Of a DNA stretch of 64,000 nt, positions 11,588-31,585 are shown piece by piece. The notes beneath the pieces are model-generated. The model saw only the letters and a list, made by a program, of their open reading frames with translations. It did not search any database and was not told where the DNA came from. The first letter of the stretch is position 1; each line of letters opens with the position of its first letter. The position numbers and the translations under genes are program-made. The stretch spans positions 1-64,000 of the IMG/VR virus record IMGVR_UViG_3300024999_000029. One strand, 5' to 3'. This stretch comes from a virus.

Positions 11588-12280
11588 TTAAAGCTTTTTA
11601 AATACAAATCCTCTATGCGATTTTTGTATACCAGTATGGACTGCACTAATACCACAATGAGTAAAATTATATTCAGGGTATTTTTCTACTAACCTTATTA
11701 TAATATCTGTATCTATTACCTCGTTATTTTTTATCATTTGAATTATTACATTATTTCTAGAATTTCTTTGATTTTCAGTTTTAGTAACAATTCTTAAATT
11801 CCCTTTTTCATAATTACTATTATTATTTATTCTATCAATATCAAATAATTTAGAATTACTTAAAAGTTTATCATAATTTTTTAAAGAAGAAATATATTCA
11901 ACATAAGATTCAAAACATAATAATTCATTATCAATAGTTATACCTCTTCCTCCATAATCTTTATATGCTCTATTATTTTTATCTAAAATTCTTCTTAACA
12001 TCCCTTCCCATCTTTTATATAGAATATGATATTGTGAAATTTTACCAATACATGCCACTCCAAAAATATATGGATAATAAGGATTTTTAACTATTTTAGT
12101 ACCTATCGCTCCACCATAAGCAATTATTTGTGTCCCATCTTCAAATTCAATTAAATAATGTGATCTATTAATTTTACCGACTATTTTAAAATCTCCGAAA
12201 TTATTTGAACTCCAAACTGTACCATTTTTATATTTTTTACTTTTATTTTCTTTTAATTTTATATCTATTACTTTTTGCAT
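11588..12280 (-). CDS. HNH-type homing endonuclease
   Basis: 230 residues. An N-terminal beta-rich part (VWSSNNFGDFKIVGKI) is followed by ILYKRWEGMLRRI, YGGRGITI and a catalytic-type block LFDIDRINNNSNYEKGNLRIVT, as in phage HNH proteins with AP2/NUMOD-like DNA-binding parts. It is a paralogue of the protein at 22016. It is wedged between primase and nuclease genes without breaking either, as free-standing homing endonucleases often are. It has a more distant ribosome site (AAAGGA, 13 bases). Confidence 0.8.
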   Translation of the reverse strand: MQKVIDIKLKENKSKKYKNGTVWSSNNFGDFKIVGKINRSHYLIEFEDGTQIIAYGGAIGTKIVKNPYYPYIFGVACIGKISQYHILYKRWEGMLRRILDKNNRAYKDYGGRGITIDNELLCFESYVEYISSLKNYDKLLSNSKLFDIDRINNNSNYEKGNLRIVTKTENQRNSRNNVIIQMIKNNEVIDTDIIIRLVEKYPEYNFTHCGISAVHTGIQKSHRGFVFKKL

Positions 12281-20340: not shown

Positions 20341-20748
20341 TTAACCGTTTCTACCTGCACCATATCCTGAATCAATATCTGCAAATCCATTATCCACATT
20401 TACAGCATTTATGGCTTCAATTATTCCATCAGAAAAATCACTATAATCAACATCATAATCAGGTTCACCATCTGACTCATCAATATCATCACCATCACCA
20501 AAAAATATAAAATCAGAATCAATATTTTCTTTAACATAATTTTCTGATGGCGTAAGATCCACTCCTGCCCAATCATATTCAAATAATCTACTACTTTTTA
20601 TCTCTGATAAAAGCTCTTCTCCTGTATATGTGTCATATCCATATTTATCTATTATTGGTTGTGCCTTTTCTTTATCTTTGACCCTTGCAAATACAGCTAT
20701 AAAACTACTAGAGCTTGAATTTGTTACAAAATCTGTGCGTATTTTCAT
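20341..20748 (-). CDS. FVTNSSSSS-leader protein 4 (last in operon)
   Basis: 135 residues. It begins MKIRTDFVTNSSSSSF, shared almost exactly with the three genes upstream, and then diverges to an acidic body ending in a glycine-rich GFADIDSGYGAGRNG. Its start overlaps the preceding stop as ATGA. The five serines use mixed TCN and AGY codons, so the peptide rather than the D​NA is conserved. It is transcribed after the radical SAM gene at 22719. A leader recognised by that enzyme is inferred. Confidence 0.75.
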   Translation of the reverse strand: MKIRTDFVTNSSSSSFIAVFARVKDKEKAQPIIDKYGYDTYTGEELLSEIKSSRLFEYDWAGVDLTPSENYVKENIDSDFIFFGDGDDIDESDGEPDYDVDYSDFSDGIIEAINAVNVDNGFADIDSGYGAGRNG

Positions 20749-21203
20749 ATGTTTGTTCTCCTTTTATATTTCATAAATTTATGCCAATTAGTAAATTTAC
20801 TTCTTATTTCATCCATGATTTTATCTTCACTTAAATCAAATTTGTTAAAAACATATTGTATATATTCGCTATCATATAACTTCCTTCTGCGCTTGTTAGC
20901 CTTTTTAACTTCCGCAAACACTTCATCTCTTGTGATTTCTCTGGTTTTTAATAAATAGTCTGCCATTTCGCTTTGAGAATACATTGTAAAATTACAAATT
21001 GGACAACTTTCTTCTGCTATAAAATAACTATCTTCTTCATCATTTTTATAATTTTCCAGCAAATGCTCTTCGCAAAACGAGTGTTCGTTTACACATCTTC
21101 TTAACCACTCTGGAAAATCCCATGTTGTTTCTTCATCTCCGCATATTTCACAAATATAACTCGAACTACTGGAATTTGTAACAAAATCTTTTCTGAATTT
21201 CAT
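20745..21203 (-). CDS. FVTNSSSSS-leader protein 3, zinc-finger body
   Basis: 152 residues. It begins MKFRKDFVTNSSSSSY. The body has CEICG, C-x-EEH and CPIC pairs that resemble a RING-like or treble-clef zinc module, then a basic helical tail. The last codons (MKYKRRTNI) are written through the spacer and SD used by the next gene, with a four-base overlap. Same leader as its neighbours but no other similarity to them. Confidence 0.75.
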   Translation of the reverse strand: MKFRKDFVTNSSSSSYICEICGDEETTWDFPEWLRRCVNEHSFCEEHLLENYKNDEEDSYFIAEESCPICNFTMYSQSEMADYLLKTREITRDEVFAEVKKANKRRRKLYDSEYIQYVFNKFDLSEDKIMDEIRSKFTNWHKFMKYKRRTNI

Positions 21204-21634
21204 TATTCGTCCTCCAAAATTATAAAATTCTCTTTATCTTCGGCAAGTTCATGTATCATATTTGAACAATATGTATCATTATGATCTACGCTTTTCCTTA
21301 AAATTGTAAACCCATCTTCGATATATTTGCTTGCATTATTATATAGTTTTGATAAATACTCATCGTCTTTTATTATTTTTTCAACTGTGTCGCAGTTTCT
21401 CCATCCATAATAATCAATAAAGTACTTATTCCACTCTTCTTTTGTTGAAATTTTTTCTCCTGCTGTTGTATCATTATCTCCCTCTGTAAACAAAACCTTT
21501 TCAATCAATCTTGAATAATTATTCAAAAACGGATATTTTTTAATTGTTTCTTCATCAATTTGTGGTAATTCTTTATACGCAACCACGAAACTACTTGAAC
21601 TACTATTAGTCACGAAATCACTTCTTATTTTCAT
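21203..21634 (-). CDS. FVTNSSSSS-leader protein 2
   Basis: 143 residues beginning MKIRSDFVTNSSSSSF. The body is acidic, mixed alpha/beta, ending ENFIILEDE. Serine codons AGT AGT TCA AGT AGT differ from those of its paralogues. GAGG precedes the ATG. Function unknown. Confidence 0.75.
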   Translation of the reverse strand: MKIRSDFVTNSSSSSFVVAYKELPQIDEETIKKYPFLNNYSRLIEKVLFTEGDNDTTAGEKISTKEEWNKYFIDYYGWRNCDTVEKIIKDDEYLSKLYNNASKYIEDGFTILRKSVDHNDTYCSNMIHELAEDKENFIILEDE

Positions 21635-21636
21635 AG

Positions 21637-22026
21637 TTACCTCCTCTGATCACAATAACCGAAAGTATATGGTATTTTATATTTATTTTCAAAAACATCT
21701 TCAACTAAAGACCAATTAAATCTACAACAAGTATTATTATCAATTACATAAAATTGTTGTTCTTCTGGAAGATTTGTGTCTCCATAATTATCTTTATTAA
21801 TTTCTTTGCCTGTTTTTACAAACAATGAACAGCCAATATCTTCATTGTTTAATATCCTTGAAATATTAAAATCCTCATCAATCTCTTCTTTGGTAAGCCA
21901 ATCATATGTTTTGTAATAAAAATCTTTAAATGCTCCATTAAATAAATCTTCTAAACTAATATTTTTAGCGGATATAATAAAACTACTTGATGATGAATTA
22001 GTTACAAAATCCTGCCTAATCTTCAT
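21637..22026 (-). CDS. FVTNSSSSS-leader protein 1
   Basis: 129 residues beginning MKIRQDFVTNSSSSSF. This start, after AGGAG, is chosen over an ATG eight codons earlier because it aligns the leader with the three paralogues. The body is mixed and ends YTFGYCDQRR, with a CC pair near residue 108. The start lies inside the HNH gene upstream by about ten bases. Confidence 0.75.
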   Translation of the reverse strand: MKIRQDFVTNSSSSSFIISAKNISLEDLFNGAFKDFYYKTYDWLTKEEIDEDFNISRILNNEDIGCSLFVKTGKEINKDNYGDTNLPEEQQFYVIDNNTCCRFNWSLVEDVFENKYKIPYTFGYCDQRR

Positions 22027-22726
22027 ATAACCCTTTCTCCTCTCTATCACTAAATTTAAATGTCCACCCTTTATGTTGTTTTCTTTTACCTTTTAAACAA
22101 TCAGATACATTAGAATTAATTAAGTCATTTTGCCTACAAAATTCTCTAACATTTGTAAATGTAAAACTTTCATTACTTGGAGATATGGCGATTATTTCTT
22201 TTAATTTATTGGTAAAATTACAATTTATATAGTTTGTAACCCATATACATGTATCTTTACTATAAACTTTGTTATTACTACCCATTTGTTTGATATCTTT
22301 ATCTAGTTGTAATAGATGTTCATTAAAGAGTTTTTCATTATATTCTTCTATTTGTTTTATATCTTTAATAAAATTCTCAAAACATAACCACTCTTGACAA
22401 ACAGTTACTCCTTTTTCGCCATATCTTTCATAAGTTGGATGGATTTTATTGTAACATCTTGTAAGCATTGATTTCCAAATAGAATATTCATGAGGATAAT
22501 CTTTTTTATTATGACATCCTAGATAACCCACTCCTACTACTGTGGGATAATTTTTATCAACAATATGCCCTTTATTTATTTGAGTAGAATTTGCATACGC
22601 TTTATATTTTGTTTTTATAAATTCTACTTCATAAATAAGATTCCTGTTTTTATCTTTATCTATTATTTGTAACACAATAAATTCTCCACTTCTATTGCTT
22701 GAATATACTTTTCCAACTTCAACCAT
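22016..22726 (-). CDS. HNH-type homing endonuclease, paralogue of 11588
   Basis: 236 residues. The N-terminal GKVYSSNRSGEF and YPTVVGVGYLG match the layout of the protein at 11588, followed by YSIWKSMLTRCYN, YGEKGVTVCQEWLCF and a degenerate catalytic block QLDKDIKQMGSNNKVYSKDT. It lies between the radical SAM gene (8-base overlap) and the first SSSSS gene, so it may be a later insertion into that operon. Confidence 0.78.
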   Translation of the reverse strand: MVEVGKVYSSNRSGEFIVLQIIDKDKNRNLIYEVEFIKTKYKAYANSTQINKGHIVDKNYPTVVGVGYLGCHNKKDYPHEYSIWKSMLTRCYNKIHPTYERYGEKGVTVCQEWLCFENFIKDIKQIEEYNEKLFNEHLLQLDKDIKQMGSNNKVYSKDTCIWVTNYINCNFTNKLKEIIAISPSNESFTFTNVREFCRQNDLINSNVSDCLKGKRKQHKGWTFKFSDREEKGLYED

Positions 22727-23804
22727 TATAAAAATTCCTCTCTATTCTATTACATAATGTAATCTCATTTACAAATGGGCATCCTCCACCACAACTATTT
22801 CTATCTACACATTTTTTGCATGAATATCTCAAACTATTTCTAAATCCTTCAAAAATACCGCTATTCCATGCTTCTTTAATCGTATATTTATTTAAGTCTA
22901 CAAGCCATTTGCTATCTTGATTACCAAAAGAACAAGGCATCATATTCATTTGTGCATCTATGTAGGCTGAATATCTCGCTCCTTCACAAAAATCCATGCT
23001 ATCCCTATTAATTTTTTCTGTGAAATTAATAATTCCACTACAAGAGCAGCTATCAAAACCAATTTTAAAGTCTACATTATTATCATCTATGAGTCTAAAA
23101 AATTCTTTTACTCGCTCATCTCCTACTTTTAATACATTTTCTTGACTTCCTAGCCCAACAGGCTTATGCATTAGGAATATAACTGCATTAATGCCTTTGT
23201 CAAAACTATTATTTCTTAATTTATTTATTGCTTCGTTTATTGTATTACTTCCTAGCACATAATGAATATTGACCTTCATCCCAGAATCTATAAACATTTT
23301 GATTGCTTTTCTTGTGTACTCACTACGATATTCACTTACAGCCACAGCCCCACAATATTGTTTAGTGATTCTTACTTCTTCATCAGTTAACCCCAATCCA
23401 GAAGTAGTATAATTAGGAATAATATTATTTTCTCTGCAATATTTTACGAACTCTTCAAATTGTTCATGCTTATTAACATCTCCTCTACCACCGAGAGCCA
23501 CCTGAAATGAATGTCCTTTTAATTGGTTAATGATAGTTTTGAAATTTTCTAATGTCATATTGGGTTTTTGAATATGTAATCCATCTTGATAGCACTCAAT
23601 ACCACTTTTAACACACAATCCTGATAATCCATGTATACACGTTGACATGATTCCAATATCCACTAATTCAGGCAGATAGCTCATAAAAGGATCAATTCCA
23701 GTATCCTCACCTTTTTCATTTATGACACCAGACCTCATATAGAATCCAGTTTTCGGATTAAACATTGATATAAATTTATTTTTCTTATCAATTTTTTTAA
23801 TCAT
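22719..23804 (-). CDS. Radical SAM/SPASM-type enzyme
   Basis: 361 residues. Cys56, Cys64 and Cys71 (CIHGLSGLCVKSGIEC) give CX7CX6C, not the classical CX3CX2C. The barrel includes QVALGGRGDVN and NYTTSGLGLT. The C-terminal part has a SPASM-like set: PCSFGNQ, then CKKCVDRNSCGGGCPF and LC. SPASM enzymes usually modify ribosomal peptides or protein maturation partners. The four SSSSS-leader proteins downstream are the obvious candidate substrates. GAGGAG precedes the ATG, and it is the first gene of its operon. Confidence 0.85.
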   Translation of the reverse strand: MIKKIDKKNKFISMFNPKTGFYMRSGVINEKGEDTGIDPFMSYLPELVDIGIMSTCIHGLSGLCVKSGIECYQDGLHIQKPNMTLENFKTIINQLKGHSFQVALGGRGDVNKHEQFEEFVKYCRENNIIPNYTTSGLGLTDEEVRITKQYCGAVAVSEYRSEYTRKAIKMFIDSGMKVNIHYVLGSNTINEAINKLRNNSFDKGINAVIFLMHKPVGLGSQENVLKVGDERVKEFFRLIDDNNVDFKIGFDSCSCSGIINFTEKINRDSMDFCEGARYSAYIDAQMNMMPCSFGNQDSKWLVDLNKYTIKEAWNSGIFEGFRNSLRYSCKKCVDRNSCGGGCPFVNEITLCNRIERNFYNG

Positions 23805-27582: not shown

Positions 27583-27690
27583 GTGAACTACCACCACCTT
27601 AGAGGTGGATGGCTTCCTGCTCAATAATGCTAATGCACTAAGTATCAACAGGCTATCCCCGTAATCCCTACGGGTTTTTATATATTTACG
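27583..27690 (-). ncRNA. Putative omega RNA of TnpB
   Basis: Downstream of tnpB the strand has two stable hairpins, CCCGTA/TACGGG and CCACC/GGTGG, and ends GGTGGTAGTTCAC at the element border, the layout of omega RNA scaffolds. The guide would start AGTATACATAAATCC, the flanking DNA. Confidence 0.6.
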
Positions 27691-28804
27691 CTACTAAACT
27701 TAATATCCTAATTCCTTCTTCTCGTATATTCTTAGCTGCATTGTAATCTCTGTCTATAATAATCCCACATGATTTACATATCCACTCTCTATCAGATAAT
27801 TGCAATTCGTGATTTATTTCTCCGCAATCATTGCATGTTTTGCTAGAAGGATACCATTTATCAACCTTAACTAAATATTTACCTTCGTTCTCTAATTTAT
27901 ATTTAAGCATTGTGGTGAACATGCCCCATCCATTATCTGCAACACTCTTACCTAAATTCAAACACTGACTCATTGCTCTCATATTCAAATCTTCAATTAC
28001 AATTACATTATACTGATTAACTAATTCTCTTGATTTCTTATGAAGAAAATCTTTCCTACAATTAGCAACCTTTTCATGTAACTTAGCAACTTTAATTCTT
28101 TGTTTATTTCGGTTATTACTTCCTTTTTGCATTTTAGATAATTTGCGTTGTTCTTTTGCTAGTTGTTCTAATGTTTGACGATAGAATATTGGATATTCTG
28201 CCCTTATACCTTGATTGTCAGTATAAAGATTCTTCATATCCATATCTAATCCTATAACATTGTTTTTCTCTTTAGGTTGAACATACTGCTCAAATTCAAC
28301 TAATATACTTATATAATATTTTCCAGAAGGTGTTTTAGATATTGAACAAGACTTAATTTCTTGATTACTTGGAATTTCTCTATGTTGTACAATGTTGACC
28401 CAGCCAAGTTTAGGTAGTTTGACTTTCTTATTTTTAATTCTGATGTTTCCACCTTGATTATTTGTAGTATAAGAGTTTCTATCTTTATGCTTACTTTTGA
28501 ATTTAGGAAAGCCAACATTTTTGCATCTAAAGAAATTGACGTATGCTGTTTGTAAATTCATTTGGGCATTAGCTAGAGCCAAACTATCCACTTCTTTAAG
28601 CCATTCAAATTCTGCCTTATATTTAGCAGGAGTAGGATTCTTGTGTTTTTTTAATTCTTCTTTATTATCTTTATATTGTTCATATATATCTTTACGCTCT
28701 GCTAACATTTTATTATATACAAATCTAACACATCCAAAAGTTTTGCTAAATAATATTTCTTGTTCTTCATTAGGATATAGCCTAAATTTATAAGCTTTGT
28801 TCAT
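27686..28804 (-). CDS. tnpB: TnpB RNA-guided nuclease
   Basis: 372 residues. The N-terminus is a typical MNKAYKFRLYPNEEQ. RuvC motifs are GLDMDMKN (Asp), VIEDLNMRAM (Glu) and IDRDYNAAKN (Asp). Between the last two is a zinc finger CNDCGE...CKSCG. All catalytic residues are present, so it may still cut DNA matching its omega RNA guide next to a TTTAA-like TAM. AGGAGG precedes the ATG. It overlaps the tnpA remnant by 4 bases. Confidence 0.93.
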   Translation of the reverse strand: MNKAYKFRLYPNEEQEILFSKTFGCVRFVYNKMLAERKDIYEQYKDNKEELKKHKNPTPAKYKAEFEWLKEVDSLALANAQMNLQTAYVNFFRCKNVGFPKFKSKHKDRNSYTTNNQGGNIRIKNKKVKLPKLGWVNIVQHREIPSNQEIKSCSISKTPSGKYYISILVEFEQYVQPKEKNNVIGLDMDMKNLYTDNQGIRAEYPIFYRQTLEQLAKEQRKLSKMQKGSNNRNKQRIKVAKLHEKVANCRKDFLHKKSRELVNQYNVIVIEDLNMRAMSQCLNLGKSVADNGWGMFTTMLKYKLENEGKYLVKVDKWYPSSKTCNDCGEINHELQLSDREWICKSCGIIIDRDYNAAKNIREEGIRILSLVA

Positions 28805-29016
28805 ATCTTTTCACCTCCTTGATTTTCAATATATTTTTTAATTACATCAATAGGTACACCACCTGTAGTTATCAAACAAAAACTTCTTGACCAAAAATAC
28901 TCTTTCCATAATTGCTTTCTTATTTGAGGGTATTCCTTCTTAATTAATCTACTACTTGCACTTTTATAAGTATTAATAAATTTCGATATTTCAGTATTTG
29001 GATGTGCTTTGAACAA
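28801..29016 (-). pseudogene. TnpA (Y1 transposase) C-terminal remnant
   Basis: 71 codons matching the end of IS200/IS605 TnpA: ISKFINTYKSASSRLIKKEYPQI-like helix, LWKEYFWSRSFCLITTGG and the nucleophile region VIKKYIENQ. The HUH half is absent and the frame lacks a proper start, so it is inactive. Confidence 0.85.
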
Positions 29017-31470: not shown

Positions 31471-31513
31471 AATTTCTCCTTTTCTATAAATTAAGCATTT
31501 CGTGGGAATTTGG

Positions 31514-31585
31514 AGACTCTAGTAGGACTTGAACCTACGATGATAGTTTTGCAGACTATCGCCTTACCATCTTGGCTATAGAGTC
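31514..31585 (-). tRNA. tRNA-Cys (GCA)
   Basis: A canonical 72-base cloverleaf: acceptor GACTCTA/TAGAGTC, D-arm GCC/GGC, anticodon arm ATAGT CTGCAAA ACTAT with anticodon GCA, and T-arm GTAGG TTCAAGT CCTAC. Discriminator T. CCA is not encoded. It decodes UGU/UGC, useful for a genome rich in cysteine-knuckle proteins. Confidence 0.95.

Follow-up and report, generated by a model that had tools for sequence, protein, structure and literature searches.

Peptide systems of the FxSxx-COOH/FxsB type, which include a radical S-adenosylmethionine (SAM)/SPASM enzyme, were reportedly described by Haft and Basu in 2011. Such enzymes pair with FxSxx peptides in STAND-type conflict systems (PMC7159879). Here, a locus of a giant phage was analyzed that resembles this arrangement in part. 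The window, i.e. the first 64,000 nucleotides of the 349,050-bp virus record IMGVR_UViG_3300024999_000029, contains a radical SAM/SPASM gene and four tagged genes, whose proteins start with a common tag of 16 residues. Both systems combine a small protein carrying a short aromatic/serine motif, a radical SAM/SPASM enzyme and an association with STAND-type conflict genes. However, the FxSxx motif is C-terminal and released by a metallopeptidase, whereas the tag sits at the N-terminus of folded proteins and has no core peptidase; no peptidase was conserved in the bacterial flanks.

Further relatives are found among the maturases. anSME is likewise a radical SAM/SPASM enzyme acting on a serine or cysteine of a protein, and is among the closest folds to the tag-linked enzyme. 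It reads C/S-x-P-x-R in sulfatases and has the canonical cluster motif CX3CX2C. In contrast, the tag lacks C/S-x-P-x-R, most tag-linked enzymes carry CX7CX6C, and no sulfatase was noticed among the recurrent bacterial neighbors. SuiB (streptide synthase), PqqE, SkfB, CteB and ChlB, which provide the closest folds and solved sequences, carry or are paired with a recognition element (RRE) for ribosomally synthesized and post-translationally modified peptides (RiPPs), and their substrates are short precursor peptides in which an N-terminal leader precedes a C-terminal core. The tag system differs from these RiPP maturases, as it has no RRE and its putative core is located at the N-terminus of whole proteins. 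No curated family or equivalog covering the enzyme or the tag system was found, and no description of the pair was found in the open-access literature, with subscription papers outside the search.

Linkage of tag and enzyme

We propose that tag and enzyme constitute a two-part post-translational modification system, in which one maturase would recognize and covalently modify a modular N-terminal tag on small proteins (probability of roughly 0.78). Tag and enzyme are genomically linked in both directions. Viral contigs were scanned with the four N-termini from the window, yielding 136 confirmed stretches; 72 loci were retained from these. The enzyme was located by a hidden Markov model of the enzyme, linkage was defined as a distance within 8 kb, and gene calls were crude. 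The enzyme was found within 8 kb and on the same strand at 62 of the 72 viral loci, and wherever the tag was called, it lay upstream of the tag array, except in L030. Among the ten enzyme-less loci, the enzyme is encoded at another place on the contig in three (L036, L056, L089), and in a further three the tag lies no more than about 110 bp from where the stretch begins (L069, L078, L085). L050 and L058 share an identical set of four tagged genes and apparently represent one partial phage, and L080 is a 15-kb fragment.

The scan was extended to 84,980 bacterial and archaeal species genomes, from which 79 loci were kept, mostly from Lachnospiraceae and other Clostridia; the enzyme was present within 8 kb at 70 of these. 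In the opposite direction, genomes were sampled for the enzyme without regard to the tag, giving 23 distinct loci. Four genome samples contained the enzyme: the Clostridia class (6 of 341 genomes), the Butyrivibrio family (6 of 299), the phylum of L129 (3 of 247) and Bacillota (10 of 349). A tagged gene was adjacent in 22 of the 23 loci, and the exception (L208/L210) covers just a portion of the enzyme model and is possibly decayed. Within the 341 Clostridia-class genomes, every pattern match that looks like a genuine N-terminal tag adjoins the enzyme. A genome count of radical SAM neighbors had been set beforehand as the test of the sequence-only reading, and all three counts support its view of the tag as the recognition tag of a maturation system with multiple substrates.

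The linkage spans phages, Bacillota, Desulfobacterota, Pseudomonadota and other bacterial groups. The cultured Vibrio phage D479 carries five tagged genes (MKxRxGFVSNSSSSSF) and a divergent enzyme, and on alphaproteobacterial plasmids the tag MKxKxDFVSNSSSTSF occurs together with the enzyme. A merely coincidental neighborhood is refuted by this two-way linkage across such distant groups, and we assign it next to no probability. The earlier description of a phage-borne system was too narrow, since the pair is also chromosomal and plasmid-borne, partly in AVAST-like immune operons.

A covariation of Lys4 tags with CX3CX2C enzymes and of Arg4 tags with the others initially held for 21 of 21 Lys4 loci, but failed with wider sampling (Lys4 with CX7CX6C in L238; Arg4 with CX3CX2C in L242-L245), and the argument was not used. 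As a separate observation, the genome of phage D479 (OZ195776.1, 258 kb) has seven PF04055 radical SAM matches, three of them above the curated cut-off, which is unusually many.

The locus in the window

The genes of the operon lie on the minus strand and are listed in order of transcription, with each tag below its gene (positions in the window):

22719 to 23804, minus strand: radical SAM/SPASM enzyme, 361 aa, proposed maturase (Pfam/TIGR matches, AlphaFold model)
22016 to 22726, minus strand: HNH endonuclease with NUMOD-like C-terminus (phrog_2081, E 2.5e-65)
21637 to 22026, minus strand: tagged protein 1, 129 aa, body without relatives in the sample (ORF, sequence comparison)
21979 to 22026, minus strand: tag MKIRQDFVTNSSSSSF of tagged protein 1
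21203 to 21634, minus strand: tagged protein 2, 143 aa, 31-member body family (FVIAYK..P..DEETLxKYPFL)
21587 to 21634, minus strand: tag MKIRSDFVTNSSSSSF of tagged protein 2
20745 to 21203, minus strand: tagged protein 3, 152 aa, Cys-rich, 25-member body family (xCEICG)
21156 to 21203, minus strand: tag MKFRKDFVTNSSSSSY of tagged protein 3
20341 to 20748, minus strand: tagged protein 4, 135 aa, acidic C-terminus, 12-member body family (CFARIADEEKA)
20701 to 20748, minus strand: tag MKIRTDFVTNSSSSSF of tagged protein 4

These open reading frames (ORFs) agree with what had been read from the letters, namely four tandem genes (20341-22026) with the common start MK(I/F)RxDFVTNSSSSS(F/Y), and a radical SAM gene beside them across an HNH gene. 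The genes overlap or abut, and sequences resembling ribosome-binding sites (RBS) precede their ATGs. Tagged protein 1 starts with the ATG at 22026 behind an RBS-like gaggag, and a version with an upstream GTG start (21637-22050) stands in the ORF list. Neither further tags nor a second gene of the tag-linked enzyme family were found elsewhere in the 349,050-bp record. On the separate 154-kb viral contig L022 / L103 (IMGVR_UViG_3300025011_000018), the four tagged genes of the window recur, and the enzyme is 100% identical to that of the window; both probably belong to one phage species.

The HNH gene overlaps both the enzyme gene and the tagged gene by a few bases, and this insertion is missing from the tag operons of relatives such as L032. 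It is probably a free-standing homing endonuclease outside the tag-enzyme system. A second HNH endonuclease of a related PHROG (phrog_2081) is located in the replication region at 11588-12280. The operon is surrounded by a replication block with DNA polymerase, primase, a DnaB-like helicase, a Sak4-like protein and a DNA methyltransferase. Further along, a transposase-family gene (27686-28804, phrog_506) appears IS605 OrfB/TnpB-like, here in a phage; it is abutted by a small gene (28801-29016) resembling a TnpA-like partner. The sole tRNA gene of the window is a tRNA-Cys (GCA) at 31511-31585.

Conservation of the tag

With regards to the tag itself, 349 distinct tagged proteins were compared. 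N10, S11 and S12 were unvaried in all 349, where the invariance of N10 was partly imposed by search patterns that fixed it and confined positions 11-13 to S/T/A, while that of S11 and S12 within S/T/A was not imposed. S13 was found in 347 proteins, the other two having Thr. Position 7 is F or Y, position 9 is T or S, and position 16 is F or Y in 348 proteins and N in one. Position 14 can be S, T, A, E, V or C, and position 15 is mostly S but also N, A or C. The enzyme-first samples contributed the variants NSSSTSF, NSSSVSY, NSSSESF, NSSSASF, NSSTTSY and NSSSTNF. The five-serine leader that had been called invariant thus shrinks to a fully unvaried N-S-S, with S14 and S15 replaceable. Owing to this tolerance, S14 and S15 are argued not to be the modified residues. 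A sequence search of the PDB with the tag gave no match.

The tag is conserved as a peptide sequence, and the DNA is not. In the window, the five serines are written as TCA AGC TCT AGT AGT, TCC AGT AGT TCG AGT, AGT AGT TCA AGT AGT and TCA TCA TCA AGT AGT, so that all four tags mix the two codon types, as had been noticed at the outset. Overall, 29 of the 32 possible TCN/AGY patterns are in use, and 58 of 59 arrays with at least three tags mix them. TCN and AGY codons cannot be interconverted by a single base change. Because of these mixed patterns, selection must act on the tag peptide and not on the DNA. This bears directly on the idea that the N-terminus works as a nascent chain or as mRNA in start-region regulation, with no mature tag being involved. 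The tag does begin precisely at the start codon in every case, as that idea would expect; yet freely shuffled serine codons indicate that the mRNA is not selected, and the tag is invariably partnered by a type of enzyme that acts on finished peptides. We therefore consider such regulation highly improbable.

Fold and motifs of the enzyme

The enzyme of the window has the fold and cysteines of SPASM enzymes that modify peptides or proteins, as judged from its predicted structure. Its AlphaFold model, based on 56 sequences, reached a mean predicted local distance difference test score (pLDDT) of 95.6 and a predicted template modeling score (pTM) of 0.93. The closest solved folds are SuiB (E 6e-12) and anSMEcpe (E 3e-11), followed by PqqE, CteB, SkfB and ChlB, and the closest solved structures by sequence are SkfB and PqqE. 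The three cysteines of the radical SAM cluster motif (C56-X7-C64-X6-C71-Y) complement this confident match to radical SAM structures, and a SAM-binding GGE-like motif reads ALGGxGD. The C-terminal SPASM motif comprises C329-X2-C332-X5-C338-X3-C342 and C351 downstream, with C253, C273 and C291 upstream. The assignment to the SPASM type, already made by the sequence-only reading, was supported by two profiles with scores just over their cut-offs (Pfam SPASM, 21.6 bits against 21.5; TIGR04085, 27.2 against 27). C-terminal SPASM cysteines (CX2CX5CX3C) are present in 85 of the 86 CX7CX6C enzymes. PHROG 7293 matches the enzyme and PHROG 7397 a tagged protein, but the PHROG library records neither a function for these two nor a link between them.

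Several points weigh against the proposed modification system. The main enzyme clades, and with them most enzymes, have the non-canonical cluster spacing CX7CX6C or CxCx3Cx3C instead of CX3CX2C; if it truly binds the cluster, the CX7CX6C loop would, to our knowledge, be new for the radical SAM superfamily. In a phage clade with the canonical CX3CX2C, the last four SPASM cysteines have mostly been lost, yet the tag is the same. Unlike many RiPP maturases, the enzyme has no RRE: the 361-aa model shows no winged helix and only a few strands at the N-terminus, and no conserved small third gene was found in the bacterial flanks, apart from a helix-turn-helix (HTH) gene in 17 loci. On at least one phage contig, L067 (332 kb), a tagged gene occurs with three other radical SAM genes, none of which belongs to the enzyme family. 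Conversely, the two Straboviridae phages examined, Klebsiella phage KP15 and Escherichia phage UPEC03 (L020, L021), encode a distant enzyme homologue without a tagged neighbor. Finally, the loci are not all independent, as several viral contigs as well as L242/L244 are near duplicates.

Altogether, 171 phage records, most of them from Straboviridae-type phages of Enterobacteriaceae, contain distant relatives of the enzyme (CX7CX2C).

Tagged proteins and proposed modification

The tagged proteins span about 90-720 aa, and their bodies were grouped at a blastp threshold into at least 66 sequence clusters, some of which are probably remotely related to each other. The statement that the bodies share nothing stands within the window, where no significant similarity was detected among the four (best E 0.66), though three of these bodies have family members in other phages (families of 31, 25 and 12 members). 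Tagged protein 3 weakly matches a RING-type zinc finger (E 1.7e-4, under the curated cut-off). In the AlphaFold model of tagged protein 2, the only body family modeled for tag disorder, residues 1-11 are predicted to be disordered (pLDDT <50) and the body is well ordered from residue 14 onwards; the disordered residues are the most conserved part of the protein. An invariant disordered tail on a variable folded body fits the expected look of a recognition and modification site. Structure searches with the tagged-protein model against PDB and BFVD returned nothing significant (best E 0.06 and 0.13, respectively). Some long tagged proteins of about 470-500 aa have a hydrophobic, membrane-like stretch right behind the tag (L203, L237-L239, L246).

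The same diversity of bodies could suggest that the common part is a handle alone. The tag would then be a docking site, and the enzyme would modify the tagged body elsewhere or a third molecule, while the tagged proteins would serve as adaptors or carriers, much as separate RRE proteins do. This agrees with the lack of an RRE in the enzyme itself and with the presence, in the immune operons, of another small conserved protein next to the tagged protein. However, no acceptor residue is conserved across the body clusters, and the tail is stricter than binding usually requires, with N-S-S unvaried and only T/S and F/Y swaps nearby, so that pure docking appears unlikely.

For the two-part modification system, we envisage that the maturase recognizes the flexible tail MKxRxDFVTNSSSSSF, which several small, otherwise unrelated folded proteins would carry as a modular tag. 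Enzyme and substrates would be co-produced from one operon of overlapping or abutting genes. The tail would enter the enzyme barrel and be modified inside the invariant N10-S11-S12(-S13) segment, with N10-S13 and the flanking aromatics as candidate residues. SPASM clusters act as electron sinks (PMC8326336), and the reaction would probably be oxidative, with the auxiliary clusters in this role. With regards to the chemistry, we tentatively favor a cross-link of an aromatic residue (F/Y7 or F/Y16) to a carbon of T9-S13. Serine oxidation to formylglycine or a similar residue is a possible second choice, some other reaction may be just as probable as this oxidation, and epimerization appears rather doubtful.

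Bacterial context and immune operons

In the commonest chromosomal form, a tagged protein of about 124 aa is directly followed by the enzyme. In the Lachnospiraceae flanks, only these two recur in nearly all loci, with the HTH gene in 17. These cassettes also speak to the possibility that the tag directs proteins to capsid, phage nucleus or membrane as a signal for sorting or packaging, read by another factor while the radical SAM gene is a separate matter. A common leader on unrelated phage proteins recalls the capsid-targeting sequences of T4 internal proteins, and the hydrophobic stretch right after the tag in some long bacterial members (L203, L237-L239) would suit a membrane signal. However, the tag is also found in single cassettes on chromosomes or plasmids, at a great distance from virion genes, and the constant partner is the enzyme and no structural gene, since only enzyme and tagged clusters are near-universal in the bacterial flanks. 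The capsid-targeting role was set aside on the same ground, and the sorting tag that the sequence-only reading had offered as an alternative is not needed and quite improbable.

In a second cellular branch, tagged gene and enzyme close a longer operon. On plasmids of Agrobacterium, Rhodobacter and Rhizobium and in L235, a SMEK-domain gene, which in L215 includes NACHT, is followed by a small gene in most cases, the tagged gene and the enzyme. In L202, L241 and L243, the order is a metallo-beta-lactamase (MBL) gene, an Avs2-like STAND gene, a small gene, the tagged gene and the enzyme. The MBL genes of these three match Avs1a in PADLOC (E 3e-79 to 4e-29), and a trypsin-like domain is present in two. 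MBL-protease pairs are known components of AVAST immunity, as described in a paper that does not mention radical SAM (PMC12799240). An Avs-type STAND NTPase was found only in the cellular branch (L202, L215, L235, L236, L241, L243). By contrast, the tagged protein has no PADLOC match and the phage systems have no STAND part in the regions seen; PADLOC gave no match for the tagged and enzyme genes tested from the window, and no STAND-sized gene is adjacent to them. Altogether, Avs-like or SMEK-domain STAND operons ending in tagged and radical SAM genes were noted in L202, L215, L216, L218, L219, L235, L236, L241 and L243, and are possibly an undescribed AVAST subtype.

Run against bodies stripped of the tag, a profile of the immune-operon tagged proteins still detects the phage tagged protein of L065 (E 2e-8) and Lachnospiraceae tagged proteins (E 7e-6). 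Within the immune operon, a weak signal of possible paralogy links the small untagged gene to the tagged one (hhalign 79%). By association only, the tagged protein may have an immune role in the AVAST-like operons. In bacteria, the modified protein would act as part of a self-contained cassette or, in one of the branches, of an AVAST-like immune operon; in phages, the arrays would be recruited copies that rework the host, or counter-defense proteins related to the immune component. That the modified tag protein is a working part of STAND-type immunity, with the phage arrays and their own enzyme as its counterparts or decoys, is conceivable, but we regard it as somewhat unlikely.

Conclusion

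As far as genomic context can tell, the tag-enzyme pair points to an undescribed protein-modification system common to phages and bacteria. If true, it would represent a new class of radical SAM substrate, namely a portable tag on folded proteins as opposed to a peptide precursor, and protein engineering could make use of a peptide tag able to recruit a radical enzyme. One common chemistry would offer a way into the function of all these clusters of uncharacterized proteins, and the AVAST-like link would tie phage-encoded arrays to a component of bacterial immunity.

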